Source: Vibrio atlanticus (GTDB lineage: Bacteria; Pseudomonadota; Gammaproteobacteria; Enterobacterales; Vibrionaceae). Taken from it: 64,000 nt of DNA. The stretch is taken from assembly GCF_024347315.1 (NCBI RefSeq), contig NZ_AP025460.1:1674001-1738000 (forward strand), given 5' to 3'. The translations under genes were made by a program, and so were the position numbers. This document shows, one piece after another, positions 13,787 through 29,320 of this stretch; within the stretch, counting starts at the first letter, position 1, and each line of letters starts with the position of its first letter. The notes beneath the pieces were generated by a model, which was not told the DNA's origin, searched no databases, and worked only from the letters and a program-made list of their open reading frames with translations.

Positions 13787-13795
13787 GGCCAACTC

Positions 13796-15457
13796 CTAGT
13801 ATTTCAATTGTTTCAATGGGTCTTGAGCCATTGAATCGAACATGTCTACCACACGGCAGTCTTCACACATCGCAATACGATTAATTGCTGTCTCATCTGA
13901 GAAATGAGAGTGACCGCGTAACTTATTTTGTAACATGTCAATCATAGACTGCGGTGCGAATGGTTTATGACAACGTAAACATTCCGCAGCTTTCTCTTCA
14001 TGAATCACAACCGCTTGTTGACGCTCTTCTTTCACCCAATTCATACGAGGAGTCAGAGTAAGAACATTCTCAGGACATGCCTTTTCACACAGACCACATT
14101 GAATACAGTCTTGCTCTACAAACTTAAGTGATGGAGAGGCACCATCGGTATGCAGAGCACGCGTTGGACACACAGCCACACAGCTCATACACAAAGTACA
14201 ATCTTTGTTTTCACACGAAACCGTGCCGTATGGCGCATTCGAAGGGAGCTCAACAATGTTTTCAACCGGAATACGAGATGAAGACATCGCATCAAGTGCT
14301 GTGAATAGGCGTTGACGTTTATTGCCTTGAAGATCGCCAAGTGCAAGATCGAACGAATCAACACACAGTGTTGGAGGCCCTTCACGTAGAGATTCTAAAT
14401 ACAGGATATCGATGGTTTCTTTTGGAACACCGATTTGGTCTAGTAACTCTTGAGCGATCCCTACTTCGTTATTTAGGACACGAATGATGGTTTCTGGCAT
14501 AAAGCGAGAAGCAGCAAACAGAACCTGAGTTGCGCCATTCACTAACGCTGCAAACCAAGTATCAATACCAATAGAAGGCAATTCTTCAACAACGATTGGA
14601 ATCACGTTATCTGGTAGCGCTTTAAGAGCCATCACGTTGTAAGTTTCATGACGTGAGCTACAGATAAGTACGATTGGGTCCAGACCGCCCGCATGTTCAT
14701 AGTTAGCTAGCGTACGTTCAATGAATTTTTGGGTATCGTCAGGATTTGGAAGCGCATAGGTAATCGCTTCTGTAGGACAGCTCGTTGCACAAGTTCCCAC
14801 GCCTTGACATAGATAAGGGTTAATCTCGATCTTGTGACCTTTCTTATCTGAGCCTTCACTTGATAGTGCGCCAGCAGGACAAGCATCAACACAACGCTCA
14901 CAGCCTTTTACGCCACGAGAACTGTGTGCACAAAGGTCGGTGTCTAGACGGAAAAACTTAGGCTTATCAAAAGTACCCATTAGCGTTGGAATCTCTTCTA
15001 ACGCTTCAGCCAGTTTTGGATAACCGCGCCCTACTGGGTAATACCCAGGAACAGGTACTTCTTCAGTCATGCAACTATTCAGACACAGGTCTAAAACCAC
15101 ATCGAAACAATCGTGATTAATAGCCACTTTTGCCAAGTTGCTTGATGTGCCTTTACTGTCAATCACGACTTCAAACGTGCCAAGGAAACCGGATACTTGA
15201 ACCGAATTTGCGAAGTACAGTTCTGGGTTTGTGCCCTTTTCGCCGTCTGTTGACAATAAGGTTAAGCTCGTTAATTGAGGTAATTGCGCCGCAGCACTTT
15301 CTATGATCGCAGTTGGACCAATAACAAGTGTATTACCGCCGCTTTCGTAGCTAACAGTAGGTGGAATCAGATTTGTTAACTCTACTGTATTTTCAAATGC
15401 ATACAGTCTTGCTTTAGCGTTATTTGAAGTTGCTTGTTCTAATAATTGTTTAAGCAT
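13796..15457 (-). CDS. Polyferredoxin (4Fe-4S dicluster protein) of the formate dehydrogenase cluster
   Basis: This 553-residue soluble iron-sulfur protein carries two double-cluster modules. The first (about residues 174-235) has CERCVDACPAGAL and CQGVGTCATSCPTEA. The second (about 416-470) has CTLCMSCVAVCPTRAL and CIQCGLCEKACPENV. CxxC pairs near the C terminus (CLRCHKPF, CEDCRVV) may bind zinc or iron. No signal peptide is seen, so it is probably cytoplasmic. It is the first gene behind a sigma-54 promoter and opens the transcript reaching to 7868. It might carry electrons to or from the enzyme or its maturation, but the partner is unknown. Confidence 0.88.
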   Translation of the reverse strand: MLKQLLEQATSNNAKARLYAFENTVELTNLIPPTVSYESGGNTLVIGPTAIIESAAAQLPQLTSLTLLSTDGEKGTNPELYFANSVQVSGFLGTFEVVIDSKGTSSNLAKVAINHDCFDVVLDLCLNSCMTEEVPVPGYYPVGRGYPKLAEALEEIPTLMGTFDKPKFFRLDTDLCAHSSRGVKGCERCVDACPAGALSSEGSDKKGHKIEINPYLCQGVGTCATSCPTEAITYALPNPDDTQKFIERTLANYEHAGGLDPIVLICSSRHETYNVMALKALPDNVIPIVVEELPSIGIDTWFAALVNGATQVLFAASRFMPETIIRVLNNEVGIAQELLDQIGVPKETIDILYLESLREGPPTLCVDSFDLALGDLQGNKRQRLFTALDAMSSSRIPVENIVELPSNAPYGTVSCENKDCTLCMSCVAVCPTRALHTDGASPSLKFVEQDCIQCGLCEKACPENVLTLTPRMNWVKEERQQAVVIHEEKAAECLRCHKPFAPQSMIDMLQNKLRGHSHFSDETAINRIAMCEDCRVVDMFDSMAQDPLKQLKY

Positions 15458-15623
15458 TGCTCAGTTCCATCTATGGACATGGATAATCTGTTCAACCTTC
15501 ATTGTAGTAAGCGATAGAGAACTTGCTGAGTAATCCGTTAACAACTAACTCTTTAGCTAGTGTGCCATTCGTTAGACCATGAACTCGTCTATCTACAAAA
15601 AAAGTTGATAATGAACGTTATTT

Positions 15624-15639
15624 AGCAAATGCCATGCCA
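15624..15639 (-). promoter_or_regulatory. Sigma-54 promoter of polyferredoxin-formate dehydrogenase genes
   Basis: The minus strand reads TGGCATGGCATTTGCT, a near-consensus -24/-12 element with GG and GC at exact spacing. The predicted transcript starts near 15613, about 155 bases before the polyferredoxin ATG. Confidence 0.82.
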
Positions 15640-15701
15640 GTTTAATAATCCTTATATATCAGTGCTTTAATGCTTTGTGGCGTTTATTGTACGTATAAAA
15701 A

Positions 15702-15732
15702 AACCGCTTGGGACATTTTGTCGCAAGCGGTT
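15702..15732 (-). terminator. Terminator of DUF3305-DUF3306 with an embedded palindrome
   Basis: A 9-bp perfect outer stem (AACCGCTTG / CAAGCGGTT) encloses the palindrome GACATTTTGTC. A run of seven T follows on the minus strand. The hairpin ends the DUF3306 transcript, and its apex is also one of the recurring GGACATTTTGTCC sites. Confidence 0.85.
15711..15723. promoter_or_regulatory. GGACATTTTGTCC-type site, formate dehydrogenase promoter (proximal)
   Basis: GGACATTTTGTCG matches the recurring 13-bp dyad with one change. It is centred about 104 bp upstream of the predicted sigma-54 start. It is proposed as a binding site of the response regulator encoded at 25761-27224. Confidence 0.65.
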
Positions 15733-15744
15733 CATTGAGTGTTT

Positions 15745-15757
15745 AGTCAAAATGTAC
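15745..15757. promoter_or_regulatory. GGACATTTTGTCC-type site, formate dehydrogenase promoter (middle)
   Basis: AGTCAAAATGTAC, read on the minus strand as GTACATTTTGACT, is a degenerate copy of the dyad. It is centred about 138 bp upstream of the predicted start. Confidence 0.5.
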
Positions 15758-15760
15758 CTA

Positions 15761-16447
15761 TTATTTGTGTGGTATATTTTGTCCCACCTCTTTTAGGTCA
15801 GCTTCGTCTGACATTGTAGCTTTATCATCCGACACTGTGTTTTTATACAGTTCTTTTTCTTCACCCGCAATTTCGTCACTTTCACTGAGTTCTGACTCGG
15901 TCTCTTCAGCTTCATTAATAGAGTCATCAACCTCATCAATCAAAGTTTCTTCTTCATTATCAGCGGCTTGTTCAGGTTCGTTTACTGTGTCTTCTTCTGT
16001 CTTGTCTTTTACCCAATCGCGAAGAGTTTCTGCAACTCCTTCAGACAGAGACTTCAAATTGCTGTAATCGTCGTCGTAATCATCTAAACCATCACGAATG
16101 TTGAACTCTTCTGAGAGGAATAGTTTACGCAATGCCGCTTTTTTTACGCTTTCAGAGGCTTCTGATACCAATAATTGGGCAACAGACAAATCTTCAGTGG
16201 CTTCTGGTGCGGGATCTTGAACGTCAGCAACATGAACGTCTTCATTGGTTTCTGAAGCTTCACTCTCTAAAGACTGAGGCGCTGCTGCTTCCATTTCAGA
16301 CGAAAGCTCAGCCGGCGAAATCTCAGAAGGTGAAGAATCAGAAGAAGTAAGTTCTGGTGCTTCCAGTGTTTGCTCTACTTCCAAAGGTTCGTCAATGGAT
16401 TCATCAAGCTTTCGTTGAGACCAACGGCTAAAGAAGTTAGTTGCCAT
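15761..16447 (-). CDS. DUF3306 protein
   Basis: This 228-residue, strongly acidic protein begins with FFSRWSQRKLDE, the conserved N terminus of DUF3306. A Glu/Ser/Ala-rich region (20-90) looks disordered, and a short conserved core around EFNIRDGLDDYDDDYS (about 112-127) follows. No signal peptide or metal motif is visible. Genes of this family sit with DUF3305 beside formate dehydrogenase clusters, so a role in its maturation is plausible but unproven. It overlaps the DUF3305 end by 11 bases. Its last codons contain one of the recurring palindromes. Confidence 0.85.
   Translation of the reverse strand: MATNFFSRWSQRKLDESIDEPLEVEQTLEAPELTSSDSSPSEISPAELSSEMEAAAPQSLESEASETNEDVHVADVQDPAPEATEDLSVAQLLVSEASESVKKAALRKLFLSEEFNIRDGLDDYDDDYSNLKSLSEGVAETLRDWVKDKTEEDTVNEPEQAADNEEETLIDEVDDSINEAEETESELSESDEIAGEEKELYKNTVSDDKATMSDEADLKEVGQNIPHK
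15772..15784. promoter_or_regulatory. GGACATTTTGTCC-type site, formate dehydrogenase promoter (distal)
   Basis: GTATATTTTGTCC, inside the last codons of DUF3306, is a two-mismatch copy of the dyad centred about 165 bp upstream of the predicted sigma-54 start. Together with 15711 and 15745 it makes three sites spaced 34 and 27 bp. Confidence 0.5.
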
Positions 16448-16901
16448 TTGATCTTCCCGCGCCTTTGCGTTTCTTACGTCTTGTTTCTAATAACTCGCCA
16501 TGACGACCGATGAACGCTTCCATCCAAGCCTGTACGGGCAAAGGAATGTCGTAGGAAAGCACTTGGTTGTCACCGTCCATGTATTGCCCTGCAACGGTTT
16601 GTGAGGCAGTAAGTAACTGAATGACGGGCTTAACATCAGAATCGACATTATCCATTACTAAGAAAAGCTTAGGTTGCTGAGAGCTTAGGTTGAATCGATA
16701 GTCTGTACGTTCATCTTTATGTAGTTGAAGTAAACAAACGTCTTGGGCGTCATCTTCTGGTGACAGTTCAAACCCCATCAATTCCCATTGAGTGGTTACC
16801 CAGATACCTGTCTTGATCTCTTTCTCTATTCTTTGGACACCTATTGGCCAAGCTGCTTCTGTTTTTTCATATTGTTCTTTGAATTCTTTTATCTCAGACA
16901 T
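16437..16901 (-). CDS. DUF3305 protein
   Basis: This 154-residue cytoplasmic protein has the DUF3305 core: WPIGVQRIEKEIKTGIWVTTQWELMGFEL at about residues 18-46 and PVQAWMEAFIGRHGE near 121-135. The tail is rich in Lys and Arg. It pairs with the overlapping DUF3306 gene, and both lie upstream of the formate dehydrogenase genes and divergent from fdhD. The biochemical function is unknown. A sigma-54 element upstream suggests it is co-regulated with the enzyme. Confidence 0.85.
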   Translation of the reverse strand: MSEIKEFKEQYEKTEAAWPIGVQRIEKEIKTGIWVTTQWELMGFELSPEDDAQDVCLLQLHKDERTDYRFNLSSQQPKLFLVMDNVDSDVKPVIQLLTASQTVAGQYMDGDNQVLSYDIPLPVQAWMEAFIGRHGELLETRRKKRKGAGRSNGN

Positions 16902-16940
16902 ACTTCACCCAATTGATTTTCTTTGGTCTGAATGTGCTTA

Positions 16941-16953
16941 GGACATTTTGTAC
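16941..16953. promoter_or_regulatory. GGACATTTTGTCC-type site in the DUF3305/fdhD region
   Basis: GGACATTTTGTAC matches the dyad with one change. It lies downstream of the DUF3305 sigma-54 start and about 235 bp upstream of the fdhD start, so a shared enhancer acting both ways is one reading. Confidence 0.6.
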
Positions 16954-16979
16954 TTAGCTCAATCATATAAGCGCTATAA

Positions 16980-16995
16980 AGCAATAAACACGCCA
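16980..16995 (-). promoter_or_regulatory. Sigma-54 promoter of DUF3305-DUF3306
   Basis: The minus strand reads TGGCGTGTTTATTGCT with exact -24/-12 spacing, about 80 bases upstream of the DUF3305 ATG. Confidence 0.7.
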
Positions 16996-17157
16996 ATACA
17001 TGTTAACTTTTACCATCTTACATGATGGCTTTCGTTATTAAGTCGTATCTATAACGGTAGTCGATACACGTAAATTCAGACAACTCCACTCGGTGAACTC
17101 TCATATTTTGCGCTATTTTAATCGAATGCTTCATGTTTTCCTGAATACCCGTTATTT

Positions 17158-17173
17158 TGGAATAAGATTTGCT
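17158..17173 (+). promoter_or_regulatory. Sigma-54 promoter of fdhD
   Basis: TGGAATAAGATTTGCT has GG and GC at the exact spacing; the -24 part is weaker than consensus. The predicted start is near 17184, about 90 bases before fdhD. Confidence 0.6.
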
Positions 17174-17273
17174 TTAAGCATGAGTTAAAGAATCGATGAA
17201 CAAGATCGGCGTTAGACCCTCTTGTTAACTTCTTATCTCTTAAAATCGCTATCTCATTAAGTAGGACGTGACT

Positions 17274-18095
17274 GTGGTAAAACCAAACATAATAAAAACT
17301 AGTGAAAACCCACTTCAAACAATCGAAGTTGAAGTGTTTGATGAATATGGTGAGAAGCTAACCAAACAGATCGCTTGTGAACGCCCTCTTACCGTCATGT
17401 TGAACTGGAAAGAGATCGTAACCCTGATGACGCTCGGCTCACGCCCTGAATCCTTAGTCTTGGGGTATTTGAAGAACCAAAGCTTCCTTTCTGACCCTGA
17501 AGCGGTTGAATCTATCATCATCGATTGGGAAACCAGCTCTGCAGCGGTTATTACCAATGAAGATACGAGCCAGCTTGAGCAAGCGCTTAAGAAGAAGACA
17601 GTGACCTCTGGCTGTGGTCAGGGCACTATGTTTGGTAACGTGATGAAGCAGTTGGAAGATTACCAAGTGCCTCAGACCAAGATTAAGCAATCTGAAATTT
17701 ACACGGCTTTAGAAGCGCTGACTCATTACAACGACACCTACAAGAAAGCTGGCGCGGTACATGGTTGCGCAGTTTGCAAAGACGACAAGGTTCTATCGTT
17801 TGTTGAAGATGTTGGCCGTCACAATGCGGTAGATACGTTGGCTGGTGAGATGTGGCTTAACAAAGAGTCAGGTGAAGATAAGATTTTTTACACTACTGGC
17901 CGCCTGACTTCTGAAATGGTCATCAAAGTGGCGCAGATGGGTATTCCTGTTCTGTTATCACGTTCAGGCGTAACGCAAATGGGTTTAGATTTGGCTCAGC
18001 AATTTGGTATCACAACCATTGCTCGCGCGAAAGGCCTGCGTTTCCAAGTGTTCACTGGCGCAGAGAAGATTGAATTCGATGTAAAAGGTGAATAA
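17274..18095 (+). CDS. fdhD: Formate dehydrogenase accessory sulfurtransferase FdhD
   Basis: This 273-residue cytoplasmic protein should carry sulfur from IscS to the bis-MGD cofactor before insertion into FdhA. The conserved core EDVGRHNAVDTLAGE (near 178-192), TTGRLTSEMV and GIPVLLSRSGVT is present. The usual CxxC active loop is altered: SGCGQGTM near residue 114 keeps one cysteine only, while a CAVC appears near residues 165-168. GTG at 17274 is the chosen start, seven bases after AGGA; the GTG at 17268 is too close to it. It is divergent from DUF3305 and has a sigma-54 element upstream. Confidence 0.92.
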   Translation: MVKPNIIKTSENPLQTIEVEVFDEYGEKLTKQIACERPLTVMLNWKEIVTLMTLGSRPESLVLGYLKNQSFLSDPEAVESIIIDWETSSAAVITNEDTSQLEQALKKKTVTSGCGQGTMFGNVMKQLEDYQVPQTKIKQSEIYTALEALTHYNDTYKKAGAVHGCAVCKDDKVLSFVEDVGRHNAVDTLAGEMWLNKESGEDKIFYTTGRLTSEMVIKVAQMGIPVLLSRSGVTQMGLDLAQQFGITTIARAKGLRFQVFTGAEKIEFDVKGE

Positions 18096-18230
18096 TCAGA
18101 TCAGCAGTCGGAAAAAAGCGTAAGTTCGATTGGTGATTCACTAACCGCTTCTAATTGTAAAGTTCTGATGTAAAGAGTTAGTGACCCATCAAGGATAGTT
18201 ACATAGAAACTTAGCTAGACACAAGATACA

Positions 18231-18270
18231 AAAACGCCGTCATGCTTTTCAGTATGACGGCGTTTTCAAT
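18231..18270. terminator. Bidirectional terminator between fdhD and ybiT
   Basis: A 13-bp perfect stem (AAAACGCCGTCAT / ATGACGGCGTTTT) serves the convergent fdhD and ybiT transcripts. T runs lie on both strands. Confidence 0.9.
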
Positions 18271-18342
18271 TTTTAATTTTCGGTTTATAGCTTATAGCTT
18301 AATTTCCAACGCATTGAGTTGAAAAGTAGGCTAACTTAAAGC

Positions 18343-19926
18343 TTAGCCGCGTGCTTTCAAGAACTCAGCGTAAGTACCGCGGAAATCGTTGATCTTGCCA
18401 TCTTTGATTTCAAGGATACGAGTTGCAAGCGAGTCTACGAATACACGGTCGTGAGATACGAAGAACAATGTGCCTTTGTAGTTCTCAAGAGCCAAGTTAA
18501 GCGCTTCGATAGATTCCATATCCATGTGGTTCGTTGGTTCATCCATAAGCAGGATGTTTGGCTTGTGCATCATGATCTTACCAAGAAGCATACGACCTTG
18601 TTCACCACCAGAGATAACCTTTACAGATTTCTTAATGTCGTCTTGACCAAATAGCATACGACCTAGGAAGCCACGAACAACTTGCTCGTCTTCGCCTTCT
18701 TGGCGCCATTGGCTCATCCAATCAAACAGGTTCATGTCTGTCTCGAAATCATGTGCGTGATCTTGAGCGTAGTAACCGATGTTTGAGTTTTCAGACCACT
18801 TGTACTCACCAGTACGTGGCTCAAGAGCGCCAGCTAGTGTGTTAAGTAGCGTTGTTTTACCCACACCGTTCTCACCGATGATAGCAACACGCTCACCTAC
18901 TTCAAAAATACCGTCGAACTTGTTGTATAGGTCTTCTTCAAAACCTTGAGATAGGTTTTCAACCACAAGTGCATTACGGAATAGCTCTTTAGACTGTTCG
19001 AAACGGATGAATGGGTTTTGACGGCTAGATGCTTTAACTTCGTCTAGTTGAATCTTATCGATCTGCTTAGCACGAGACGTTGCTTGCTTCGCTTTAGATG
19101 CGTTAGCAGAGAAACGAGATACGAACGTTTGAAGTTCAGCAATTTGTGCTTTCTTCTTAGCGTTGTCAGACAGTAGACGCTCACGAGCTTGAGTCGCAGC
19201 TGTCATGTACTCATCGTAGTTACCAGGGAATAGACGAAGTTCGCCGTAATCAAGGTCAGCCATGTGTGTACAAACAGAGTTTAGGAAGTGACGGTCGTGC
19301 GAAATGATGATCATTGTGCAGTTACGTTGGTTTAGCGTATCTTCCAACCACTTGATGGTGTCCATGTCCAGGTTGTTCGTTGGTTCGTCAAGAAGCATGA
19401 TATGCGGGTCTGCAAACAGTACTTGAGACAATAGAACACGAAGTTTCCAACCTGGTGCTACTTCGCTCATTAGACCGAAGTGCATAGATTCTTCAATACC
19501 TACCGCAAGAAGAAGCTCACCCGCTTTCGCTTCTGCCATGTAACCGTCCATTTCAGCGAACTGAACTTCAAGATCAGCTACCTTCATGCCGTCTTCTTCG
19601 CTCATTTCAGGCAAAGAGTAAATGCGGTCACGCTCTTGCTTAATAGCCCAAAGCTCTTTGTGACCCATGATAACCGTGTCGATTACCGTGAATTCTTCGT
19701 AAGCAAATTGGTCTTGGTTTAGTTTAGCTACGCGCTCGTTTGGATCGTAGCTTACGTTACCAGCACTTGGCTCAAGTTCACCAGATAGGATCTTCATGAA
19801 CGTCGATTTACCACAGCCATTCGCGCCGATTAAACCGTAGCGGTTGCCTTCGCCGAACTTAACTGAAATATTTTCGAAAAGTGGCTTAGCGCCGAATTGT
19901 TGGGTGATATTTGCTGTGGAGATCAA
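18343..19926 (-). CDS. ybiT: ABC-F family ATPase YbiT
   Basis: This 527-residue soluble ABC-F protein has two ATP-binding cassettes joined by a linker and acts on ribosomes as a translation factor. Walker A motifs are GANGCGKST (34-42) and GENGVGKTT (about 350). Signatures and Walker B motifs include [12 protein letters not shown] and [13 protein letters not shown]. The linker [23 protein letters not shown] helix near 247-265 is typical. Similarity to E. coli YbiT (530 residues) is strong along its length. The start is a TTG at 19926, with AAGG eight bases upstream; no ATG is available in frame. Confidence 0.92.
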
Positions 19927-20377
19927 TGCCGTTACCTTTTTAATGTGAAAAACGCCGCAACGTTACTTGTTCGGGGCTTTAACTGCAAGTCTTGATTGCA
20001 ATTACCCGCTATTAAGTGAGTGATAACCCAACCAAATCATAGTTTGAGCTGACTCACACTTTTGATTTTCTATTTATCGACGAAAAGCCGCTGATTTTCA
20101 GGGAAAACAAAATATCAAACGGCGCCCTAAAATGGGAGAGATATAACGTCCCAAATCATGCCGAACATTGAATATATCGTATGCTGATTAGTTACAGTAA
20201 AACCAACCCGATCAAAGCAGGCACAGACATAGCCAAGACTAGCCTAATCCCTGACAATTTCATGACAAAATCGATCGAAACAGGAATAAAGTACTCGCCC
20301 CCGATACGGGGTTGGATTTCACAAAGTAAGATTATCTAACTATAGTAATCCTAACCTCATAATTCTAAGAGACTTTT
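19927..20377. other. Divergent intergenic region, ybiT / P-loop membrane protein
   Basis: No gene, RNA or strong hairpin is recognised in these 451 bases. Promoters for both divergent genes should lie here, but no confident -35/-10 pair was found. Confidence 0.5.
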
Positions 20378-22723
20378 ATGCGTTCACTATCGCGCTTCTT
20401 ACTCCTCACTTTAGCCATTCTCTCATGGCCTAGTCATGCCAACTTGGAATATGACTTACAATCTCAGCCGCAGGTATCCGATTCTGCTGTTGATCTCGAT
20501 GATCGAATTGATTCGTTACCCGATCCCCTCTTTATGGAGCCGTCGGACAGACGCCAAGTCAATATATTGCTCGCTGAAGTGCTACAAGTTCAAAAGCAGG
20601 AAATCAAAACCTTCGAGAAACAGATAAAAGCCTACAGAGCGAACAACGACGCCGAACAATGGTTTGCCGTTCAAACCAGCTACGTCACTTTGAATAGCTT
20701 GAATGTAAGCAAGCAACACCTATTAGAGCAGACGAACTCCGCTAATAAAGAGCGCCTAACGGGCTTTGGCCCTTACGGCGTAACTCAATTTAAACAAGAG
20801 TGGGAATTAACCAAGCTCAACATTGAGTATCTTGTTTACTTCCAAATTCGTAGCTTTAAAGCGCTCGTTAAAGACATCTTTATTTCGCCAGTACCTGTGA
20901 TTGGTGCATCATTAAAAGTGTTGTTCATCTACTTTGGTTTAGCGTGGTGGCTTGCCAACAGCACTCGTTTGATTGAGTTGTTCAGAATTAATTTTCTTGA
21001 AGCGAAAACGAACCCTCCTTTCTTAGTGCGTGTGGTTTGGTATATCAGCCGCGCTGATCGTGCGATTGCTTGGTTAATCGCGATTACGCTTTCACTAAGA
21101 GTGCTTTCCAGCATCCCTAGCCTACAACACCTGATTTTCCTTGAGATCTTCACCTGGTGGATTCTAGGTGGTTCGATTGCCATCAGCTTTATTTTGGAAT
21201 TTGCGTATCGTTTGGGTCGCACATCCAATCAAGAAGTGATTGCGCTGCGCCTATCGACTATTCGCCGTTATGTATGGAGCTTCATTGTTGCGGGTGTGAC
21301 CCTTCAGATATCGAGCATCACGCTAGGCAAAGGCACGATTTATAGTTGGATATATAGCGTTCTGTTTTTCTGGTTTGTACTGGTTACCATTTCAGTGCTT
21401 AAATTATGGCGCGCGAAAGTCTTCGATACGTTGCAACACATCTCCGATCGTCCGGTATGGGTGAATTGGGCGGTAAACCGTAAGGAAACCTTCCTACTTA
21501 ATATAATAGCAACGGCAATTGGCATCGTATGGTTGAGCGTGTACAGTTTCCAACACCGCATCATGGCCTTGCTGTCTAATTACACGCTGTTTAGCCAAGC
21601 TTTGGCGTATCTGTTTAGAATCGAAGTAGCTAAGCAGTCAGATCTCGATAAGAATCAGCAAAACTTGGTTCGAATCAAAGGCGATCAAACCTATGAATAC
21701 ATTCTGCCAGGTAATATAGACAGTACGTTAATTGACTATGCCGGTGACGAGGTTAAGCAACTGTCTCGCTACTTGATGTCAGACAGCCCGGCTATCTGTA
21801 TTGTTTCAGGTGAGCGTGGTGTGGGCGCGACAACGCTGCTTTATACCTTGCTGCACAAAGTATCTAACGCTGAGCCCGTATATGTAAGCTGCCCTTACGC
21901 GGGTTACCAAGAGCTCTTAGCGCATTTAGCCGTGAGCATTGGCTTAGAAGAAGAAGCAACTGAAATTCAAATATTAGCGCACCTTCGTAAGAGCAATACC
22001 ACTTACCTTATCGCGATAGATAACGCTCAACGACTGGTGAAACCAATGGTCGGTGGCCTGTCTGATTTGATTCGTTTGACCAACCTTCTGCGTCGTTCTA
22101 AAAAGAACCACCGTGTCGTGATATCGATCGCCAAATCAAGTTGGCGATTTGTGGATAGAGCGCGTGGTGAGCGTCTGCTGTTTGATTTGGTGTGCTTCCT
22201 TCCGCGTTGGACAGAGAAACAAGTGGGTGAACTTCTAAATAGCCGTATCAATACGGAGCTAGAGAAGCCGTTGTCTTTTGATGGCTTAGTGGTTCCTAAG
22301 CAATGGGACCAAGATGATATGAGTGAAGAAGAACGTGCACGCCAAGGTTTCTATCGAATTTTGTGGCACTACTCTGATGGCAACCCTACCGTTGCGCTGC
22401 GTTTCTTCCGACTCTCTTTGAACCGAAACAAAGAAACAGATCAAGCGGTAGTGCGTTTATTCCATGTCCCTGAAGCGCAGGAACTAGAGAATATGCCGAA
22501 ACCTATGTTGGCTGTACTTCGTTCTATCGTACAACTGGAAATCGCTTCTCCAGAAGTGTTGTCTGAATGTACACAGCTGAGCACGGCAGAGATAACGGGG
22601 ATTCTGCGTTACTTTGAAAGCCGTGGTTATATTGGTTGGCATGAAGAAAAGGCTCGAATTTCCGAGCACTGGTTCCGCCACATTACTAACGTTCTTGATC
22701 GTCAACATCTACTGGTGAAGTAA
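20378..22723 (+). CDS. Multi-spanning membrane protein with C-terminal P-loop NTPase-like and winged-helix domains
   Basis: This 781-residue protein has a signal peptide (1-21), an extracytoplasmic helical region (about 50-165), some six to eight membrane segments (about 175-410) and a cytoplasmic C-terminal half. That half holds a P-loop-like motif GERGVGATT at 478-486, where alanine 484 replaces the usual lysine, and a Walker B-like YLIAIDNAQ with Asp548. A tail from about 700 looks like a winged helix (TQLSTAEITGILRYFESRGYIGW). The layout recalls STAND or AAA regulatory ATPases. The MscS gene follows after one base, so the two probably work together. I do not recognise a characterised homologue. 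Confidence 0.75.
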   Translation: MRSLSRFLLLTLAILSWPSHANLEYDLQSQPQVSDSAVDLDDRIDSLPDPLFMEPSDRRQVNILLAEVLQVQKQEIKTFEKQIKAYRANNDAEQWFAVQTSYVTLNSLNVSKQHLLEQTNSANKERLTGFGPYGVTQFKQEWELTKLNIEYLVYFQIRSFKALVKDIFISPVPVIGASLKVLFIYFGLAWWLANSTRLIELFRINFLEAKTNPPFLVRVVWYISRADRAIAWLIAITLSLRVLSSIPSLQHLIFLEIFTWWILGGSIAISFILEFAYRLGRTSNQEVIALRLSTIRRYVWSFIVAGVTLQISSITLGKGTIYSWIYSVLFFWFVLVTISVLKLWRAKVFDTLQHISDRPVWVNWAVNRKETFLLNIIATAIGIVWLSVYSFQHRIMALLSNYTLFSQALAYLFRIEVAKQSDLDKNQQNLVRIKGDQTYEYILPGNIDSTLIDYAGDEVKQLSRYLMSDSPAICIVSGERGVGATTLLYTLLHKVSNAEPVYVSCPYAGYQELLAHLAVSIGLEEEATEIQILAHLRKSNTTYLIAIDNAQRLVKPMVGGLSDLIRLTNLLRRSKKNHRVVISIAKSSWRFVDRARGERLLFDLVCFLPRWTEKQVGELLNSRINTELEKPLSFDGLVVPKQWDQDDMSEEERARQGFYRILWHYSDGNPTVALRFFRLSLNRNKETDQAVVRLFHVPEAQELENMPKPMLAVLRSIVQLEIASPEVLSECTQLSTAEITGILRYFESRGYIGWHEEKARISEHWFRHITNVLDRQHLLVK

Positions 22724-22724
22724 A

Positions 22725-23612
22725 ATGAAGAAGTTATTTGTCCTACTATTTGTTGGCTTGGCAAGTGCTGTCAGTTTCCCGACCTTTGCGACGGAAGAGT
22801 TAGCCAATGTAGAAAACATCTCAAAGATAGCGAGCCTAGTGCGATGGAGCGGTGTGTTTTTCTCCATGATCGTTATTGCTGCGATGTGGTTGCTGCTTAA
22901 GTTTATCAACTCAATGGTGACCAGTTTTGGTAGCCAATTCGTGCAATATCGAATGCTGCTACAAAAACTGCAGTCGTTTACTCAGTTCTTTATCTACGTG
23001 AGCACCGGTCTTATCGTGTTCATGATGAGCTTTCGAATCAACGACCAAATACTGGCTTTGATTGGTGGTACCCTCGCCGTGTCAGTCGGCTTTGCGCTTA
23101 AAGACTTGGCAGCTTCATTTATCGCGGGCATCACGGTAATGATTGATAGACCCTTTCAAGTTGGTGACCGCGTCACGTTTGAAGGTAACTATGGCGACAT
23201 CATTACCATTGGTTTGCGTTCTGTTCGAATGAGAACCCTGAACGACGACATTATCACGATCCCGAACAACAAGTTCTTAAATGAAGTGACCACCAGTGGT
23301 AACTATGGCGCATTGGACATGCAAGTGGTGATTCCGTTTTACGTCGGTATGAATGAAGACATCACCCTAGCCCGCGACCTGATTCAAGAAGCCGCGTCTT
23401 CAAGTCGTTACATACACTTGCCAAAGCCTGTAACGGTTCTGGTTAAACAGACGATTACCGACCACTACCTAGCGATACAGTTGACGTGTAAGGCTTATGT
23501 GGTGGACACCGCGTATGAGAAATTGTTTGAAACCGACATTACCCTGCGTGTGATGAAAGAGTTTAAGAAGCACAACATCAACCCACCGAAGATTTCAGTG
23601 GCAGCGCATTAG
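22725..23612 (+). CDS. MscS-family mechanosensitive channel with signal peptide
   Basis: This 295-residue inner-membrane channel has a cleavable-looking signal sequence (1-22, ending in PTFA), three membrane segments and the MscS pore helix GGTLAVSVGFALKDLAASFIAG near residues 113-134. The beta domain follows (DRPFQVGDRVTFEGNYGDI, then ITIPNNKFLNEVTTSG) and a C-terminal cage domain. It starts one base after the upstream membrane NTPase stop, so co-expression is almost certain. Channel opening might be controlled by that partner instead of, or along with, membrane tension; this is inference. Confidence 0.9.
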   Translation: MKKLFVLLFVGLASAVSFPTFATEELANVENISKIASLVRWSGVFFSMIVIAAMWLLLKFINSMVTSFGSQFVQYRMLLQKLQSFTQFFIYVSTGLIVFMMSFRINDQILALIGGTLAVSVGFALKDLAASFIAGITVMIDRPFQVGDRVTFEGNYGDIITIGLRSVRMRTLNDDIITIPNNKFLNEVTTSGNYGALDMQVVIPFYVGMNEDITLARDLIQEAASSSRYIHLPKPVTVLVKQTITDHYLAIQLTCKAYVVDTAYEKLFETDITLRVMKEFKKHNINPPKISVAAH

Positions 23613-23630
23613 GCTTTTCATATTTTAGAC

Positions 23631-23670
23631 GCTTGTAATTGTTCGACATGGCTTGTAATTGTTTGAAATA
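23631..23670. repeat. 20-bp imperfect tandem repeat after mscS
   Basis: Two adjacent 20-bp units begin with GCTTGTAATTGTT and differ only in their last bases. No function is evident. Confidence 0.8.
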
Positions 23671-23683
23671 ACGGGCTATAAAT

Positions 23684-23724
23684 AAAAACACCTCCGAACT
23701 TATCTTAAGTGCGGAGGTGTTTTT
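23684..23724. terminator. Bidirectional terminator between mscS and the histidine kinase gene
   Basis: A 13-bp perfect stem (AAAAACACCTCCG / CGGAGGTGTTTTT) with a 15-base loop lies between convergent genes. Confidence 0.9.
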
Positions 23725-23743
23725 CTATTCGCGTTATGAACGA

Positions 23744-25771
23744 CTAAAGGTTAGACACTAATAACTGCGGTGTGGCTTTTTGCTGAAGATAGATACTAAA
23801 GCGACTTCCTTTACCTACTTCGGATTCAACTCGTATTTCGCCGCCAGTTTGGCTCAAAATACTTTGAGAAACGGACAAACCTAAGCCTGTGCCGTCTCTT
23901 TTGGTGGTATAGAAAGGCGAGAATATACGTTTCAGTTGTTCTTCCTTAATACCACAACCTTCATCTTCAACATGAACAATAGCCCCATGAGATACTCCAT
24001 TTTCAACCCAATCTTCACTCGAGATAGTCAATGTGCCCTGTCCGTCCATCGCGTGAATCGCGTTCATTTGCAGGTTTACTAGAATTTGCAGCAATTGATT
24101 TCGGTTCACTTCGACTGAGGTTTTAGCATTCAATTGCGAGACATACACAATGCCTTTCTTTTTTGCGCCTGTTTTTACGAGTGTAATACTTTCATCGACA
24201 ATTGGATTGATATGTTGCCAAGTAATTTCGTCTTGTACACCACCGTGTCGGCTGTATTGAAGTAAGCTTCGTGTGATGTTTCGGATTCGGTCGATCTGCT
24301 CCATGATCGCGTGGACTTCTTCGTCTACACGGCCCACTTCATCGCCGAGTTCAAACTTCATTAGTTCAACATTGCCAAGAATCACCGCCGTTGGGTTATT
24401 AATCTCATGGGCAATACCTGCGGTTAACTCACCTAATGCGGCTAATTTCTCGTTGACCACCAGCTTATCTCTAGCTTGGTTGAGAAGCTGGATGTGCAGT
24501 TCGAGTTCTTCCGTTTTCTCTTTCAAACTGGCGGTACGAGAATGAACCTTACATTCGAGTTCAGACGCAGCTTGTTGAATCTCTTGATTACGCTCGTGGA
24601 GCAGATCTAACATTTTGTCGAACTGTTTCGCAAGCAACGTAAGTTCGTGTTGATCATCCAAACCCAACGTACCGATTCGCTTGTCTTGGCCCATTTGGAC
24701 TAGCTTTACAACTTTATGGATGCGTTCAATTGGGTTGAAAAGATCGCGTGCACCACGGTGTACGATCAAACCTGAAGCTAACAGCAGTAATATGATGGTG
24801 ATGCTGATTTCACCAAGGTTAGTCAGATACGTCTCTACGAGTGGCCAGATTAGATAGCCGGTATAAAGCATGCCAATAACGTTATCAAACTGGTCGTGGA
24901 TTGGTTGATAAGCGGTGATGTACCAAGCGTCGTAAACATATGCTCGGTCTAACCACTTTTGCCCTTGATTCAATACTTTTGAATGAACCTCATGAGAAAC
25001 GCGAGTACCAATTGCGCGCCCTGCACTGTCTTCACTGCTTAATGGCACATTAGTGCTGACACGCAGATCATCAAGGAATACGGTAACCGTACCAATGCGG
25101 CGATTAAAACCATCACGTTGTGGATAGATCAAGTTGCTGATCTGATCAACTAACTGTGTGCTGTTGTTAAGTAGGATCCCGCCATCAAGAAAACCAATAA
25201 CGTGATCATTCTTGTCTCGAATTGACACAACAGTGCGGCTAACTAAACCCCGAGTTTCGACGTTTTGATTATTGAGCATTGGGACTTCGGCTTGTCTTGC
25301 AAGGTTTTGGTCTAAATCGTTGAGTTCATTTTGGCTCAATACACTAAAGAACGATTCTTTGCGTGTCAGATCGAGGTATTCACGCTTTTTCCCCATGCTC
25401 TCAACACTTCTCCAGCGCAAAAAGTCGAGCTCATAGCGAGATTTTTTTTCAGAAACCCAACGAGTGAGCTCTTCCTTTGAAATATCACTCTTAAGTTTAA
25501 CTCGAAAGTTGTAAGACTCAGCGAATGCTTGAACGTTATAGGCCTGTTGGTTTTGAATTAGATGAATACTGTTGTCGGCAACGTCCAAACGCTCATCAAC
25601 ATCGATCAAAGCCCCCTGCCACGTATAATGAACAGACCAATACAAAGTGATCGCAACCAGAGCGCATAAAGTTAAGATGATCGGCGCTGACGTCAAAAAT
25701 AACAGACGATAACGCACCATGGTTTTGAACCGAAACGTCCACTTTGACCACCAATGACGTCTAATCGGCAT
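23744..25771 (-). CDS. NtrB-type sensor histidine kinase with periplasmic Cache-like domain
   Basis: This 675-residue membrane kinase has helices near 23-45 and 330-350 flanking a periplasmic sensor region of about 280 residues that looks like a Cache fold (IRDKNDHVIGFLDGGIL, then VIGMLYTGYLIWP). A HAMP segment (about 350-400) and a coiled coil follow. The H box ELTAGIAHEINNP puts the phosphorylated histidine near 454. The ATPase motifs are NLQMNAIHAM, DEGCGIKEE and GTGLGLSVSQSI. Its start overlaps the response regulator stop by 11 bases. It lies between the formate dehydrogenase and tungstate genes, so it may sense formate, tungstate or a related periplasmic cue; the ligand is unknown. Confidence 0.9.
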   Translation of the reverse strand: MPIRRHWWSKWTFRFKTMVRYRLLFLTSAPIILTLCALVAITLYWSVHYTWQGALIDVDERLDVADNSIHLIQNQQAYNVQAFAESYNFRVKLKSDISKEELTRWVSEKKSRYELDFLRWRSVESMGKKREYLDLTRKESFFSVLSQNELNDLDQNLARQAEVPMLNNQNVETRGLVSRTVVSIRDKNDHVIGFLDGGILLNNSTQLVDQISNLIYPQRDGFNRRIGTVTVFLDDLRVSTNVPLSSEDSAGRAIGTRVSHEVHSKVLNQGQKWLDRAYVYDAWYITAYQPIHDQFDNVIGMLYTGYLIWPLVETYLTNLGEISITIILLLLASGLIVHRGARDLFNPIERIHKVVKLVQMGQDKRIGTLGLDDQHELTLLAKQFDKMLDLLHERNQEIQQAASELECKVHSRTASLKEKTEELELHIQLLNQARDKLVVNEKLAALGELTAGIAHEINNPTAVILGNVELMKFELGDEVGRVDEEVHAIMEQIDRIRNITRSLLQYSRHGGVQDEITWQHINPIVDESITLVKTGAKKKGIVYVSQLNAKTSVEVNRNQLLQILVNLQMNAIHAMDGQGTLTISSEDWVENGVSHGAIVHVEDEGCGIKEEQLKRIFSPFYTTKRDGTGLGLSVSQSILSQTGGEIRVESEVGKGSRFSIYLQQKATPQLLVSNL

Positions 25772-27224
25772 ATTCAGAGCCTTCTGTGTTCCAATCTTTA
25801 TATTTACGCTCTAGCGTTTTCCGTGCAACGCCGAGGTCTCTTGCAGCTGCGGATTTATTACCATCATGAAAACTCACTAGTTGCTCGATATGAGATTTTT
25901 CTACTTCTTTGAGTGTCCAAGTGTTTGGGTAACCTTCTGCAGCGTCTACGTTATTCAAGTTTGGTATTTCTGCTCCATGTGACACCGTCACTGAAATGCT
26001 GGTGGGCGCAGGATCGCCATTAATTTCGCGCCAATAGTGCGCTGGTGGCTTGTCTAAAAGAATGCACCTTTCGACTAGGTTTTTGAGTTCGCGAATATTT
26101 CCCGGCCATTCGTATTCATTCATCGCCAAGATATCTTCATGCGCCCAGTTTGGGACCGGTACACTAAGTTCACTTGCTAAAAGACGAGTGAAATACGGAA
26201 CAAGCTCTATTAGATCGGATGGACGCTCTCTCAATGGCACAACATCGATTTTAAGCACATTGAGTCGGTAGAATAGATCGCGACGGAAGTGCCCTTTTTC
26301 GACCTCTTGTTGAAGGTTTCGGTTAGTCGCCGCCACTACTCGTACGTCAACGGCAATTTCTTTCTCGCTACCGACTGGACGAATAGTGCGTTGCTCTAAC
26401 ACACGTAACAGCGCTGCTTGCATTGGTAGTGGCATTTCACCAATTTCATCAAGGAACAAGGTACCACCACTTGCGACTCTGAATAGACCTTCACGGTTTT
26501 TCTTCGCGCCGGTAAATGCGCCAGAGGTATGCCCGAATAGTTCACTTTCTAGAAGTTCTGGGGCGATTGCGCCACAGTTGATTGGCACAAATGGCCCAGC
26601 GCGTTTGCTGGCTTCATGTACACCACGTGCAACTAGCTCTTTACCTGTACCTGACTCACCTTCTATAAGAACGGATGCTCGAGAGGGTGCAAATTGACTG
26701 ATCAGCAATTTAAGCTGTTTGGTTTTATCTGAGTTACCGATTAACTCGGTCTTGATATGACGGCTAACATCACGCTTCAATGCGTATTGCATTCTTTGAT
26801 CAAGGCGCTTATCCATACAACGTAGTACAGCTTGTATCATTTGTTCTAAGTTGAAAGGTTTAAGAATGAAGTCTGAAGCGCCAAGCTTAAGCGCGGATAT
26901 GGTCATCTCTAGATCAGCATAGCCAGTCATGAAAATAACATCGGCACGTTTGTCGTTGTCGTTAAACGCTTCTTCCCACTCAATACCAGAGCGTCCTGGC
27001 AGGTTGATATCAAGAACAATGAGATCAAAATGTTCGCTCGAACGCAGTATTTCAGCATCTTCAACGGATCCTGCACTCGATACCTTGCCAAAGAACTTAC
27101 CCAGAGCCTTCTTTAGAATAGCCTGCATCCCTACTTCATCGTCCACGACCAAGACGGAAAACGCTTGATATTGAGTCAATGTGTTTGGGTTTAGGTTCGA
27201 TGCAGGTGAACTAGGTAAAGACAT
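25761..27224 (-). CDS. NtrC-family sigma-54 response regulator
   Basis: This 487-residue activator has a receiver domain (about 22-140, phospho-site Asp72 in LDINLPG), a sigma-54 AAA+ domain with GESGTGKE, the sigma-54 contact loop GAFTGA and ATNRN, and a C-terminal Fis-type helix-turn-helix (DGNKSAAARDLGVARKTLERKY). It should drive sigma-54 promoters after phosphorylation by the overlapping kinase. ATG at 27224 is chosen; the frame continues upstream only to a TTG that runs through the regulatory sites. It is divergent from tupA, with three dyad sites beginning 25 bases before its start codon. I propose it controls the tungstate and formate dehydrogenase genes. Confidence 0.92.
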   Translation of the reverse strand: MSLPSSPASNLNPNTLTQYQAFSVLVVDDEVGMQAILKKALGKFFGKVSSAGSVEDAEILRSSEHFDLIVLDINLPGRSGIEWEEAFNDNDKRADVIFMTGYADLEMTISALKLGASDFILKPFNLEQMIQAVLRCMDKRLDQRMQYALKRDVSRHIKTELIGNSDKTKQLKLLISQFAPSRASVLIEGESGTGKELVARGVHEASKRAGPFVPINCGAIAPELLESELFGHTSGAFTGAKKNREGLFRVASGGTLFLDEIGEMPLPMQAALLRVLEQRTIRPVGSEKEIAVDVRVVAATNRNLQQEVEKGHFRRDLFYRLNVLKIDVVPLRERPSDLIELVPYFTRLLASELSVPVPNWAHEDILAMNEYEWPGNIRELKNLVERCILLDKPPAHYWREINGDPAPTSISVTVSHGAEIPNLNNVDAAEGYPNTWTLKEVEKSHIEQLVSFHDGNKSAAARDLGVARKTLERKYKDWNTEGSEYAD

Positions 27225-27248
27225 AATGATTAGCCGATGGGGAAAGTT

Positions 27249-27263
27249 GGGACAGAGTGTACC
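27249..27263. promoter_or_regulatory. GGACATTTTGTCC-type site, tup promoter (distal)
   Basis: GGGACAGAGTGTACC shares the GGACA...TGT.CC frame with a different centre. It is about 168 bp upstream of the predicted tupA start and 25 bp upstream of the regulator start codon, so autoregulation is possible. Confidence 0.5.
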
Positions 27264-27284
27264 AATTAACCTTTTGTGCGACAG

Positions 27285-27307
27285 GGACAATGTGCGACAT
27301 TTTGTCC
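27285..27307. promoter_or_regulatory. Two overlapping GGACATTTTGTCC-type sites, tup promoter
   Basis: GGACAATGTGCGA (27285-27297) runs into CGACATTTTGTCC (27295-27307), the latter a one-mismatch match. They are centred about 133 and 123 bp upstream of the predicted tupA start. Confidence 0.6.
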
Positions 27308-27397
27308 TAGCTCATATTTTAATGCATTTTGTTAGCCTAAATGACGCAGTTTTGTTCGATATAACAGCAATTTAATGAGATTTGATGCACTATTTAT

Positions 27398-27413
27398 TGG
27401 CATTAAGCTTGCT
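27398..27413 (+). promoter_or_regulatory. Sigma-54 promoter of tupABC-mobA-mobB/moeA
   Basis: TGGCATTAAGCTTGCT is a strong -24/-12 match with exact spacing. The predicted start is near 27424, about 104 bases before tupA. Confidence 0.82.
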
Positions 27414-27527
27414 TATTAGGTGTAGATTCCTAATTACAACAATTAGCGTCTTATGCACATGCCCTTCTTTGAGCCCTTTAAAAATAGAGGCATGTCATTC
27501 ATTTATAACAGAATGGACATAATAATA

Positions 27528-28334
27528 ATGAAAGCAATTCCCCTAACTATTGCAGCTCTATCTATCGTCAGTTACACGGCTAGCAGCGCGGAAGACACCA
27601 CTCATATCAAATTGGCGACAACCACAAGTACCTACCACTCAGGCTTACTGGACTACTTATTGCCTGAGTTCGAAAAGGATTCTGGTATTAAGGTTGATGT
27701 TCTCGCTGCGGGTACGGGTAAATCACTTCGCATGGGTGAAAACGGTGACGTTGATTTGGTAATGACTCACGCACCAAAAGCTGAAGCGAACTTCGTTGAA
27801 AAAGGTTACGGCGTTTTACCTCGTAAGCTGATGTACAACGATTTTGTTATCGTTGGCCCACAAAGCGACCCTGCGAAGATTGAATCTCAAAAAGCAGTAG
27901 CTGATGTGTTCAAAGCAATCGCGAACAACAACGTGACGTTTGTTTCTCGTGGGGACGACTCTGGTACTCATAAGAAAGAGATGGGTATTTGGGCACAAAC
28001 TAAGATGGAGCCAAACTTTGGCGGCTATCGCAGCGTTGGTCAAGGAATGGGCCCAACTCTGAACATGGCGTCTGAAATGCAAGGCTACACCATGACAGAC
28101 CGTGGTACTTGGTTGGCTTACCAAAACAAACTTGACCTTAAAGTGTTGTTCCAAGGCGACAAGAACCTATTTAACCCTTACCAAGTGATTCTTGTTAACC
28201 CAGAACGCTACCCAAGCATCAATTACCAAGCAGCGAAAGTATTCAGTGATTGGTTGGTTAACCCTAAAGGCCAGAAACTGATCAACGACTTTAAACTGCA
28301 CGGCAAACAGCTGTTTGTTGCAAACGCAGAATAG
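27528..28334 (+). CDS. tupA: Tungstate ABC transporter binding protein TupA
   Basis: This 268-residue periplasmic protein binds tungstate and hands it to TupB. A signal peptide covers residues 1-22 (SYTASSA). The oxyanion motif TTTSTYHSGLLDYLLP and the later FVSRGDDSGTHKKE fit the TupA family, not molybdate-type ModA. The ATG at 27528 gives a proper signal peptide; in-frame starts further upstream add a stretch without export features. It is the first gene after the sigma-54 promoter, and tupB and tupC follow. The family is known for high tungstate selectivity. Confidence 0.92.
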   Translation: MKAIPLTIAALSIVSYTASSAEDTTHIKLATTTSTYHSGLLDYLLPEFEKDSGIKVDVLAAGTGKSLRMGENGDVDLVMTHAPKAEANFVEKGYGVLPRKLMYNDFVIVGPQSDPAKIESQKAVADVFKAIANNNVTFVSRGDDSGTHKKEMGIWAQTKMEPNFGGYRSVGQGMGPTLNMASEMQGYTMTDRGTWLAYQNKLDLKVLFQGDKNLFNPYQVILVNPERYPSINYQAAKVFSDWLVNPKGQKLINDFKLHGKQLFVANAE

Positions 28335-28359
28335 TTGGTTGCAAGTGCAGAATAGCTTG
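28318..28359. repeat. 21-bp tandem duplication across the tupA stop codon
   Basis: Two adjacent 21-bp units (TTGCAAACGCAGAATAG.. and TTGCAAGTGCAGAATAG..) span the tupA stop, so the stop region is doubled. It looks like a recent slippage duplication. Confidence 0.85.
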
Positions 28360-28389
28360 TTGTAAGAAATGAGTCGTGGGTTGTGAGTA

Positions 28390-28435
28390 AAGCGTAGCGT
28401 TGAAGGTTTAACCCTAACCAACTAGCGCTACGCTT
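28390..28435. repeat. Long stem-loop between tupA and tupB
   Basis: A 10-bp perfect stem (AAGCGTAGCG / CGCTACGCTT) encloses 26 bases. No T tract follows, so it is more likely an mRNA stability or attenuation element than a terminator. It would favour high TupA over TupB and TupC. Confidence 0.65.
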
Positions 28436-28611
28436 AACTAAACAGTCAACGAGACCACCTAAATAATCACGTTTAAAAACCGCCTTGCTTTTAAGGCATT
28501 CACGCTTAGAAACAATCGCTGACCAATACAGGCTCAAATAGTTTGTGTCAGCTATGATTAACATCAGACACTACCGATAAAAGCCTATTATCGATTCAAA
28601 CGAGATACTTC

Positions 28612-29310
28612 ATGACCCTATGGCAAACAACGATTGATGCAATGAATCTACTGGTGAGTTTTGACCACGAATTGTGGCAAATCGTCGCGGTATCCTTCAG
28701 CGTATCTTTGTCCGCCATCTCATTAGTGATTGTTCCTGCAATCCTTATGGCTTTCTTACTGGCTTACACCGAATTCCCCGGTAAATGGGCTCTGCTTTCG
28801 GTGATCAACACCTTACAAGCGATACCGACCGTGGTAATTGGCTTGTTGATGTACATGATGCTCTCTCGTTCTGGTCCTTTAGGTGACTGGCAATTACTGT
28901 TCACGCAAAAGGCGATGATTCTAGGTCAGATGCTGATCTGTTTCCCTATCCTAGTTGCGATGATGCATGGCGCTCTGCAGGCCAGTGACCGCCGAGCAGT
29001 AGAAACAGCGCGCACTCTTGGCGTATCAACAACACGAGTCGCGTGTACCTTGATTTGGGAAACTCGTTTCCCTCTATTGGCTGCCACCATTGCTGCCTTC
29101 TCTCGTATCGTCACAGAAGTAGGTTGTTCAATGATGGTGGGTGGCAACATTATGGGGATGACAAGAAACATCCCAACAGCTATCGCCATGGAAAGCCACA
29201 AAGGCGCATTCGCTCAAGGCGTCGCCCTCGGTATGGTGTTATTAGCATTGGCATTAGCCCTTAATTTTTTCCTTTCCAGTGTGAGAGGAAAAGGCTATTT
29301 AAGAACTTAG
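28612..29310 (+). CDS. tupB: Tungstate ABC transporter permease TupB
   Basis: This 232-residue inner-membrane permease has about five to six membrane segments and an EAA-type loop (ETARTLGVSTTRVACTLIWE, near 125-144) that contacts the TupC ATPase. The segment INTLQAIPTVVIGLLMYMMLSRSGPLG is typical of the tungstate/phosphate-like permease branch. A gap of 277 bases with a stem-loop separates it from tupA, and ten bases separate it from tupC. Confidence 0.92.
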   Translation: MTLWQTTIDAMNLLVSFDHELWQIVAVSFSVSLSAISLVIVPAILMAFLLAYTEFPGKWALLSVINTLQAIPTVVIGLLMYMMLSRSGPLGDWQLLFTQKAMILGQMLICFPILVAMMHGALQASDRRAVETARTLGVSTTRVACTLIWETRFPLLAATIAAFSRIVTEVGCSMMVGGNIMGMTRNIPTAIAMESHKGAFAQGVALGMVLLALALALNFFLSSVRGKGYLRT

Positions 29311-29320
29311 GAACGCTGTC

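Follow-up and report, generated by a model that had tools for sequence, protein, structure and literature searches.

A putative formate-responsive sigma-54 two-component system with a conserved candidate operator at the formate dehydrogenase and tungstate uptake genes of Vibrio

FhlA, the activator of the formate-hydrogen-lyase regulon in Escherichia coli, is a one-component regulator and a cytosolic formate receptor, and the uptake genes for molybdenum and tungsten (Mo/W) are controlled by ModE, TunR and other supply-side regulators that read the metal. In vibrios the formate dehydrogenase (fdh) operon depends on sigma-54 (RpoN): loss of rpoN in V. parahaemolyticus lowers expression of genes VP1510-VP1515 by 3.2 to 4.8 log2 units according to the available text of PMC9817140, and chromatin immunoprecipitation (ChIP) sequencing placed fdh likewise under RpoN in V. 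cholerae (Dong and Mekalanos 2012, as cited in PMC9817140). No RpoN gel shift was found at VP1510 in the available text of PMC9817140; by gene order VP1510 is taken as the orthologue of the polyferredoxin gene described below. Here we analyze a 64,000-nucleotide stretch of the Vibrio atlanticus genome (contig NZ_AP025460.1, positions 1,674,001 to 1,738,000; hereafter the window), which holds an fdh operon, genes for a tungstate-type transporter (tupABC) and, adjoining tupA, genes for a sensor histidine kinase and a response regulator. We propose, at a probability of roughly two in three, that kinase and regulator constitute a sigma-54 two-component system that responds to formate and acts through a likely operator, TGnGACA-N3-TGTCnCA, found conserved ahead of both the fdh and the tupABC promoter.

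The regulator combines receiver, sigma-54 AAA+ and Fis-type domains with a GAFTGA loop, the sigma-54 contact, that begins at residue 235, an adjoining kinase gene and -24/-12 promoters with upstream operators, as is typical of NtrC-type two-component activators. Its Fis-type helix-turn-helix contains RKTLERK. The kinase, whose best protein match (97% identity) is named Vibrio splendidus, harbors HisKA and HATPase domains with HEINNP at residue 455. The two reading frames overlap by 11 bases and the regulator is divergent from tupABC-mobA-mobB-moeA (27528-32419). An earlier note on this DNA had placed the regulator gene in the middle of the circuit's genes, whereas it adjoins tupA. The best NCBIfam models for the regulator are AtoC and NtrC, and it lies under the cut-off for all 25 models shown, of 110 families (AtoC, 371.9 against 714). 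Judged by its sequence features, the regulator would be an NtrC-type sigma-54 activator, with phosphorylation-dependent binding and activation predicted.

The earlier note had listed seven dyads near one consensus and four -24/-12 elements, and all are found in the window. Scored against the ten letters in the two arms of GGACA-N3-TGTCC, five of the dyads are good (9/10 at 15711, 16941, 27250 and 27295, 8/10 at 15772), the one at 27250 having been given one base off, as 27249. The other two, at 15745 and 27285, score 7/10 and also match the enlarged operator poorly (8/12 and 9/12), and we rejected them as operators. This enlarged operator, graded on twelve letters, emerged from alignment of the sites as the longer palindrome TGnGACA-N3-TGTCnCA; with both strands pooled, its outer TG/CA is retained in 81-91% of distinct sites between the regulator gene and tupA and in 78-79% of those at fdh. 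The number of dyads in the whole window is not above chance, with 21 matches at up to three mismatches against 19.1 in shuffles, and the case therefore rests on their place and conservation.

For the Vibrionaceae, a search of 150 genomes gave an orthologue in 111, of which 66 loci, chosen for spread, were fetched. Regulator identity reaches down to 59%; many of these loci come from close relatives and the counts are not independent events. Kinase, regulator, tupA and tupB occur together in 66/66. Dyads of at least 8/10 are present in 59 of 66 regulator-tupA regions (window included; the 815-bp region of L103 was left out of these counts) and in all 32 regions upstream of fdh, compared to 3.8 in shuffles for each set. 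At 9/10 or better there are 70 sites in the 66 regulator-tupA regions and 24 in the 32 fdh regions, and the shuffles yield 0.28 and 0.26, respectively. The gap between operator and -24 element at fdh is 70-72 bp in 26/31 relatives, and the second fdh operator is shared by eight Vibrio relatives, with 61 bp separating the pair. The sites are thus conserved in orthologous regions, as expected if a shared dyad and a sigma-54 system tie fdh to tup, the central claim of the earlier note. The tup gaps cluster near 60, 71, 81 and 91 bp; we do not claim helical phasing, as gaps of 118-130 bp are out of phase.

Genome-wide pattern searches, which used no gene as input, point to the same loci. In a scan of Vibrio genomes, the operator core with a -24/-12 element at 60-90 bp was matched 109 times, in 74 of 99 genomes, compared with three control matches, and each of the 30 matches classified has an fdh cluster or the regulator and tup genes within 1.5 kb. 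At 91-121 bp there were 34 matches in 31 of the 99 genomes, against nine controls, and of 30 loci, 28 belong to fdh or tup (the exceptions being L263 and L280). The exact enlarged operator alone has 66 sites in 45 of 61 genomes compared to 12 for the reversed pattern; with one site per genome classified, 29/30 are at fdh or tup, and some second and later sites lie elsewhere (e.g. in G025, G035, G156 and G199). The Vibrio operator-plus-promoter set is, as far as classified, fdh and tup. The one exception in the exact search, L308 in Vibrio genome G184, is an operator away from both; this genome lacks the joint pattern at 60-90 bp.

Within the 5.1-Mb V. atlanticus genome the enlarged operator has a single exact match, at the fdh promoter, and at least seven places differ from it by one letter, both good regulator-tupA sites among them. 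When up to two mismatches are allowed, the operator is rarer than its reversed pattern (117 against 159 per strand); the sites therefore stand out by rank and place and not by number. GGACA-N3-TGTCC with up to one mismatch has nine matches in this genome, four of them in the window, and of these four, three fall in the named intergenic regions. The other one-mismatch matches retrieved as loci (L005-L008) adjoin none of the genes listed for the window and were set aside. An exact inner dyad, GGACAAAATGTCC, also lies within the mobB-moeA coding sequence (31592-31604). It was set aside as a further operator on account of its coding location and its keeping one of the four outer letters, and is probably a chance occurrence.

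The predicted signal comes from the kinase sensor, which has a Cache_3/Cache_2 fold. The sensor model superposes best, by Z, on two formate-bound chemoreceptor domains; these two formate complexes lead the next crystal structures by more than 2 Z units, and the sequence profile likewise points first to formate-bound domains. Formate binding by an Arg-Thr-Thr triad is reported for the chemoreceptor PacF in the available text of PMC12501870. In the kinase the triad corresponds to R237, T240 and T256, as placed by alignment to 8py0/8py1 (the PacF counterpart, R142, T145 and T158, is not itself in the alignment), and it is invariant in 31/31 aligned kinases, i.e. the window and 30 of 36 sensor-fragment matches, three with stops and three others being left out. 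The sensor is predicted to bind formate through these residues, and formate, not metal, is the best reading of the circuit's signal, which the earlier note had left unnamed.

Outside the Vibrionaceae, 23 of 274 genomes of the class (own included) match the regulator at E 1e-95 or better. We fetched 20 stretches of 24 non-own regulator matches and read 37 of 80 further loci. In 14 of the 20 fetched stretches tup, fdh, fdhD or mobA genes lie near the regulator. The kinase and regulator of Shewanella frigidimarina (L201) and Thiothrix lacustris (L179) have tup adjoining, and upstream of tupA there is an operator, with one and two mismatches, respectively, plus a -24/-12 element. The dyad GGACATTTTGTCC, or its exact complement, is found 3' of the kinase gene in loci named Bradyrhizobium (L199), Rhizobium (L182), Thalassospira (L183) and Marivibrio (L194). 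There it precedes an MFS gene's -24/-12 element by about 50-90 bp, accompanied by a second dyad in three of the loci. Each locus also holds an NAD-linked, FdsBA-like formate dehydrogenase, whose genes follow the MFS gene in L199 and L183 and lie upstream of the regulator gene in L182 and L194. The dyad thus accompanies the regulator rather than any one type of target gene, an argument for the regulator being its reader. The reading helix of the dyad-associated regulators shares the motif RKT(L/I/V)(E/D)RK, and none of the seven regulators lacking it (L164, L174, L176, L178, L189, L191 and L207) has a joint operator-promoter match. By these comparisons the pair appears widespread in Proteobacteria, beside tup or fdh in other Gammaproteobacteria and with its operator at formate dehydrogenase loci in Alphaproteobacteria.

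Several further loci deserve mention. In Rhizobium L184 (1102-1206, 4664-4900 and 12001-12104) and Afipia L190 (4088-4189 and 11995-12098), both with a related kinase-regulator pair, similar dyads and -24/-12 elements precede Hsp70/ClpB-like genes. The Tateyamaria-labelled L205 has a dyad, GGTCAGGTTGTCC, at 2469-2481 directly upstream of a tupB-tupC-tupA set, without a -24/-12 element by the pattern used. L206, labelled Nocardioides marinus, has a proteobacterial-type kinase, regulator, dyad and MFS gene in an actinobacterium-named contig, reflecting either contamination or transfer. The roseobacter-type loci L185, L186, L196-L198, L208 and L214 have the same kind of kinase, and several have a convergent regulator and fdhA near, but none shows a joint operator-promoter match.

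We suggest the following mechanism. Periplasmic formate would bind the Cache-type sensor, as its fold and conserved triad imply, and the kinase would phosphorylate the regulator, for which the domain make-up and gene overlap speak. The regulator would then bind the operators, which lie about 60-130 bp upstream of the -24/-12 promoters, and its AAA+ domain would open sigma-54 holoenzyme at the fdh operon, where RpoN dependence is published, and presumably at tupABC-mobA-mobB-moeA. Synthesis of formate dehydrogenase would thereby coincide with import of its metal, likely tungstate, and with assembly of the cofactor. That a widespread proteobacterial pair uses one operator and sigma-54 to turn extracellular formate into formate dehydrogenase plus metal uptake and insertion, such that tungsten import tracks substrate demand and not metal supply, we consider somewhat better than an even bet.

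The same regulator, operator and promoters could also make up a metal-homeostasis switch in which the kinase senses tungstate or molybdate supply, directly or via TupA, and the kinase and regulator do adjoin tupA, closer than fdh, in all 66 Vibrionaceae loci. We nevertheless regard such a switch as unlikely. Both the sensor model, by Z, and the profile point first to formate-bound domains, the formate triad is invariant, and the four alphaproteobacterial-named loci have the operator before an MFS gene with formate dehydrogenase in the locus; moreover, for a signal of metal shortage to induce a metal-consuming enzyme would not be sensible. A kinase that answers a related small carboxylate (lactate, oxalate or acetate), with formate sensed, if at all, by another route, is distinctly unlikely given the formate dehydrogenase in the same loci and the lead of the formate complexes in the structural ranking.

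The assignment of the dyad to the neighbouring regulator is a prediction, and another DNA-binding protein might read it, in which case the regulator would act elsewhere and tup and fdh would share a distantly encoded sigma-54 activator. Two results weigh against the regulator as the reader of the dyad: a strict joint operator-promoter scan matched 15 of 56 loci (control, 0), leaving 41 without a match, although the regulator is in view in not all of them, and the roseobacter-type loci with the kinase (L185, L196-L198, L208 and L214) have no joint match. In the non-matching loci the operator may be either looser or, in some groups, absent, and the roseobacter-type loci perhaps use another operator. 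The joint travel of dyad and regulator across families while target genes change, and the lack of matches at loci whose regulator lacks the helix motif, make a separate reader very unlikely. Overall, the observation of a shared dyad is right and the proposed link of fdh and tup through one sigma-54 two-component system is well supported by comparison, its fdhD part being weak.

The earlier note had also placed fdhD and DUF3305 in the circuit. Their sigma-54 elements are conserved (Table 1), but a dyad of 9/10 or better occurs in only 6 of 34 DUF3305-fdhD regions (0.07 in shuffles), namely the window and five relatives, and 28/34 have no dyad of 8/10. The dyad at 16941 is, moreover, downstream of the DUF3305 -24/-12 element. 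The two genes would join the sigma-54 set with a good dyad of their own only in close relatives; their membership is plausible, the link being weaker than for fdh and tup. Inclusion of mobA and mobB-moeA, likewise claimed, is reasonable: they come after tupABC with overlapping reading frames, a crude scan found no + strand terminator-like site in the tupA-tupB interval, and a terminator-like hairpin of 14 pairs lies 3' of mobB-moeA at 32480-32510.

Table 1 Genes, candidate operators and -24/-12 elements in the window. Operator scores are out of the twelve letters of the enlarged operator unless stated.
Feature	Position	Strand	Remarks
fdhA, formate dehydrogenase catalytic subunit, 951 aa	9975..12830	-	PF00384/PF01568/PF04879; twin-arginine-like start SRRAFMK
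TorD/DmsD-like chaperone gene, fdh operon	13118..13792	-	PF02613
Polyferredoxin, first fdh operon gene	13796..15457	-	Fer4 domains
fdh operon -24/-12 element TGGCATGGCATTTGCT	15624..15639	-	such element in 31/31 relatives, reversed control 0
fdh operator TGGGACATTTTGTCGCA	15709..15725		12/12; sole exact match in genome
Weak dyad	15743..15759		8/12
DUF3306 gene	15761..16447	-	PF11748; 3' end overlaps second fdh operator
Second fdh operator TGGTATATTTTGTCCCA	15770..15786		10/12
DUF3305 gene	16437..16901	-	PF11749
fdhD/DUF3305 dyad TAGGACATTTTGTACTT	16939..16955		8/12, inner 9/10; conservation poor
DUF3305 -24/-12 element TGGCGTGTTTATTGCT	16980..16995	-	such element in 24/34 regions
fdhD -24/-12 element TGGAATAAGATTTGCT	17158..17173	+	such element in 21/34 regions
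fdhD, formate dehydrogenase maturation factor	17268..18095	+	PF02634; divergent from DUF3305
Sensor histidine kinase, 675 aa	23744..25771	-	Cache_3-type sensor; PF17201/PF17202/PF00512/PF02518
Response regulator, 487 aa	25761..27224	-	receiver PF00072, sigma-54 AAA+ PF00158, Fis-type helix-turn-helix PF02954
Regulator-tupA operator TGGGACAGAGTGTACCA	27248..27264		11/12; directly upstream of regulator start codon
Weak dyad overlapping next operator	27283..27299		9/12; not conserved across 18-locus alignment
Regulator-tupA operator TGCGACATTTTGTCCTA	27293..27309		11/12
tupA -24/-12 element TGGCATTAAGCTTGCT	27398..27413	+	such element in 64/65 relatives, reversed control 0
tupA, tungstate-binding protein	27528..28334	+	PF12849; sole NCBIfam match tung_bind_TupA, 252 bits, cut-off 400
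tupB permease	28612..29310	+	PF00528; tung_perm_TupB 178.7 bits, cut-off 320
tupC ATPase	29321..30040	+	PF00005; name from position and gene order
mobA	30018..30602	+	PF12804
mobB-moeA fusion	30602..32419	+	PF03205, PF03453, PF00994, PF03454

The best NCBIfam model for fdhA is Fdh-alpha (477.9 bits, under the cut-off of 666). None of the Tup proteins exceeds its NCBIfam cut-off (TupC, 106 against 400), and for TupB the tungstate model ranks second, behind a general ABC permease model; a preference for tungstate over molybdate is therefore drawn from family resemblance. The first regulator-tupA operator (27225-27264 region) starts 24 bases 5' of the regulator start codon, and in some relatives an operator lies within 10 bases of it (L058), which suggests self-control, i.e. 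self-repression. Between fdhD and the kinase there is a block of other genes (ABC-F, AAA and MscS), of which the AAA and MscS genes (20378-23612) are present in many Vibrio loci and not found in others, a variable insert in an otherwise stable neighbourhood.

If this proposal is correct, it names the missing activator of the sigma-54-dependent vibrio fdh operon, with its operator to the base, and supplies an easily testable signal, namely formate binding to the soluble domain. It would further explain the joint expression of W/Mo formate dehydrogenase, transporter and cofactor genes, a logic relevant to building CO2-reducing formate dehydrogenases in new hosts, and the kinase would be a ready-made formate biosensor. 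VC1522 of V. cholerae is presumably the orthologue of the window regulator. The divergence of VC1522 and VC1523 in PMC6855506 is consistent with this. According to the available text of two sources, the only ones found to mention VC1522, an AphA ChIP peak lies between the two genes (PMC6855506) and VC1522 is among the regulators with changed expression in mice (PMC4441509); with VC1522/VC1523 taken as the regulator-tupA orthologues, the AphA peak hints at a possible quorum sensing link.

The circuit had been called undescribed. The RpoN dependence of fdh was already published, and our literature searches found no paper assigning a target or signal to this two-component system. Coordinated moeA1-mobB-tupBCA is noted for Methylorubrum in PMC13197769, the available text of which does not contain the words 'response regulator' or 'histidine kinase'. 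The RpoN regulons of V. parahaemolyticus and V. cholerae agree with our locus in placing fdh under sigma-54, but the available text of PMC9817140 gives no activator, operator or tup link, and neither 'tungst' nor 'molybd' appears in it. The formate chemoreceptors PacF, McpF/Mcp26 and Atu0526 (PMC12501870, available text) and the 8py0/8py1 domains share the Cache-type fold and the formate Arg-Thr-Thr; these receptors steer swimming, whereas the sensor here is part of a histidine kinase whose output is transcription. The parts of the circuit are of the known NtrC kind, and it is for the operator, the regulon and the predicted formate input that we found no report. NtrC, ZraR, AtoC, FlrC and LuxO likewise combine a receiver, an AAA+ domain with GAFTGA and a Fis-type helix-turn-helix with operators upstream of -24/-12 promoters; the present regulator differs in its own operator, TGnGACA-N3-TGTCnCA, in its own regulon of fdh and tup, and in a partner kinase with a formate-type sensor. 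Like FhlA it would be a sigma-54 activator that answers formate to make formate dehydrogenase, but sensing is predicted to occur outside the cell, by the kinase, and metal uptake is included. With ModE and TunR it would share control of Mo/W uptake genes; unlike these metal sensors, the circuit is predicted to read demand, i.e. the substrate of the enzyme, and would amount to substrate-driven control of tungsten acquisition.

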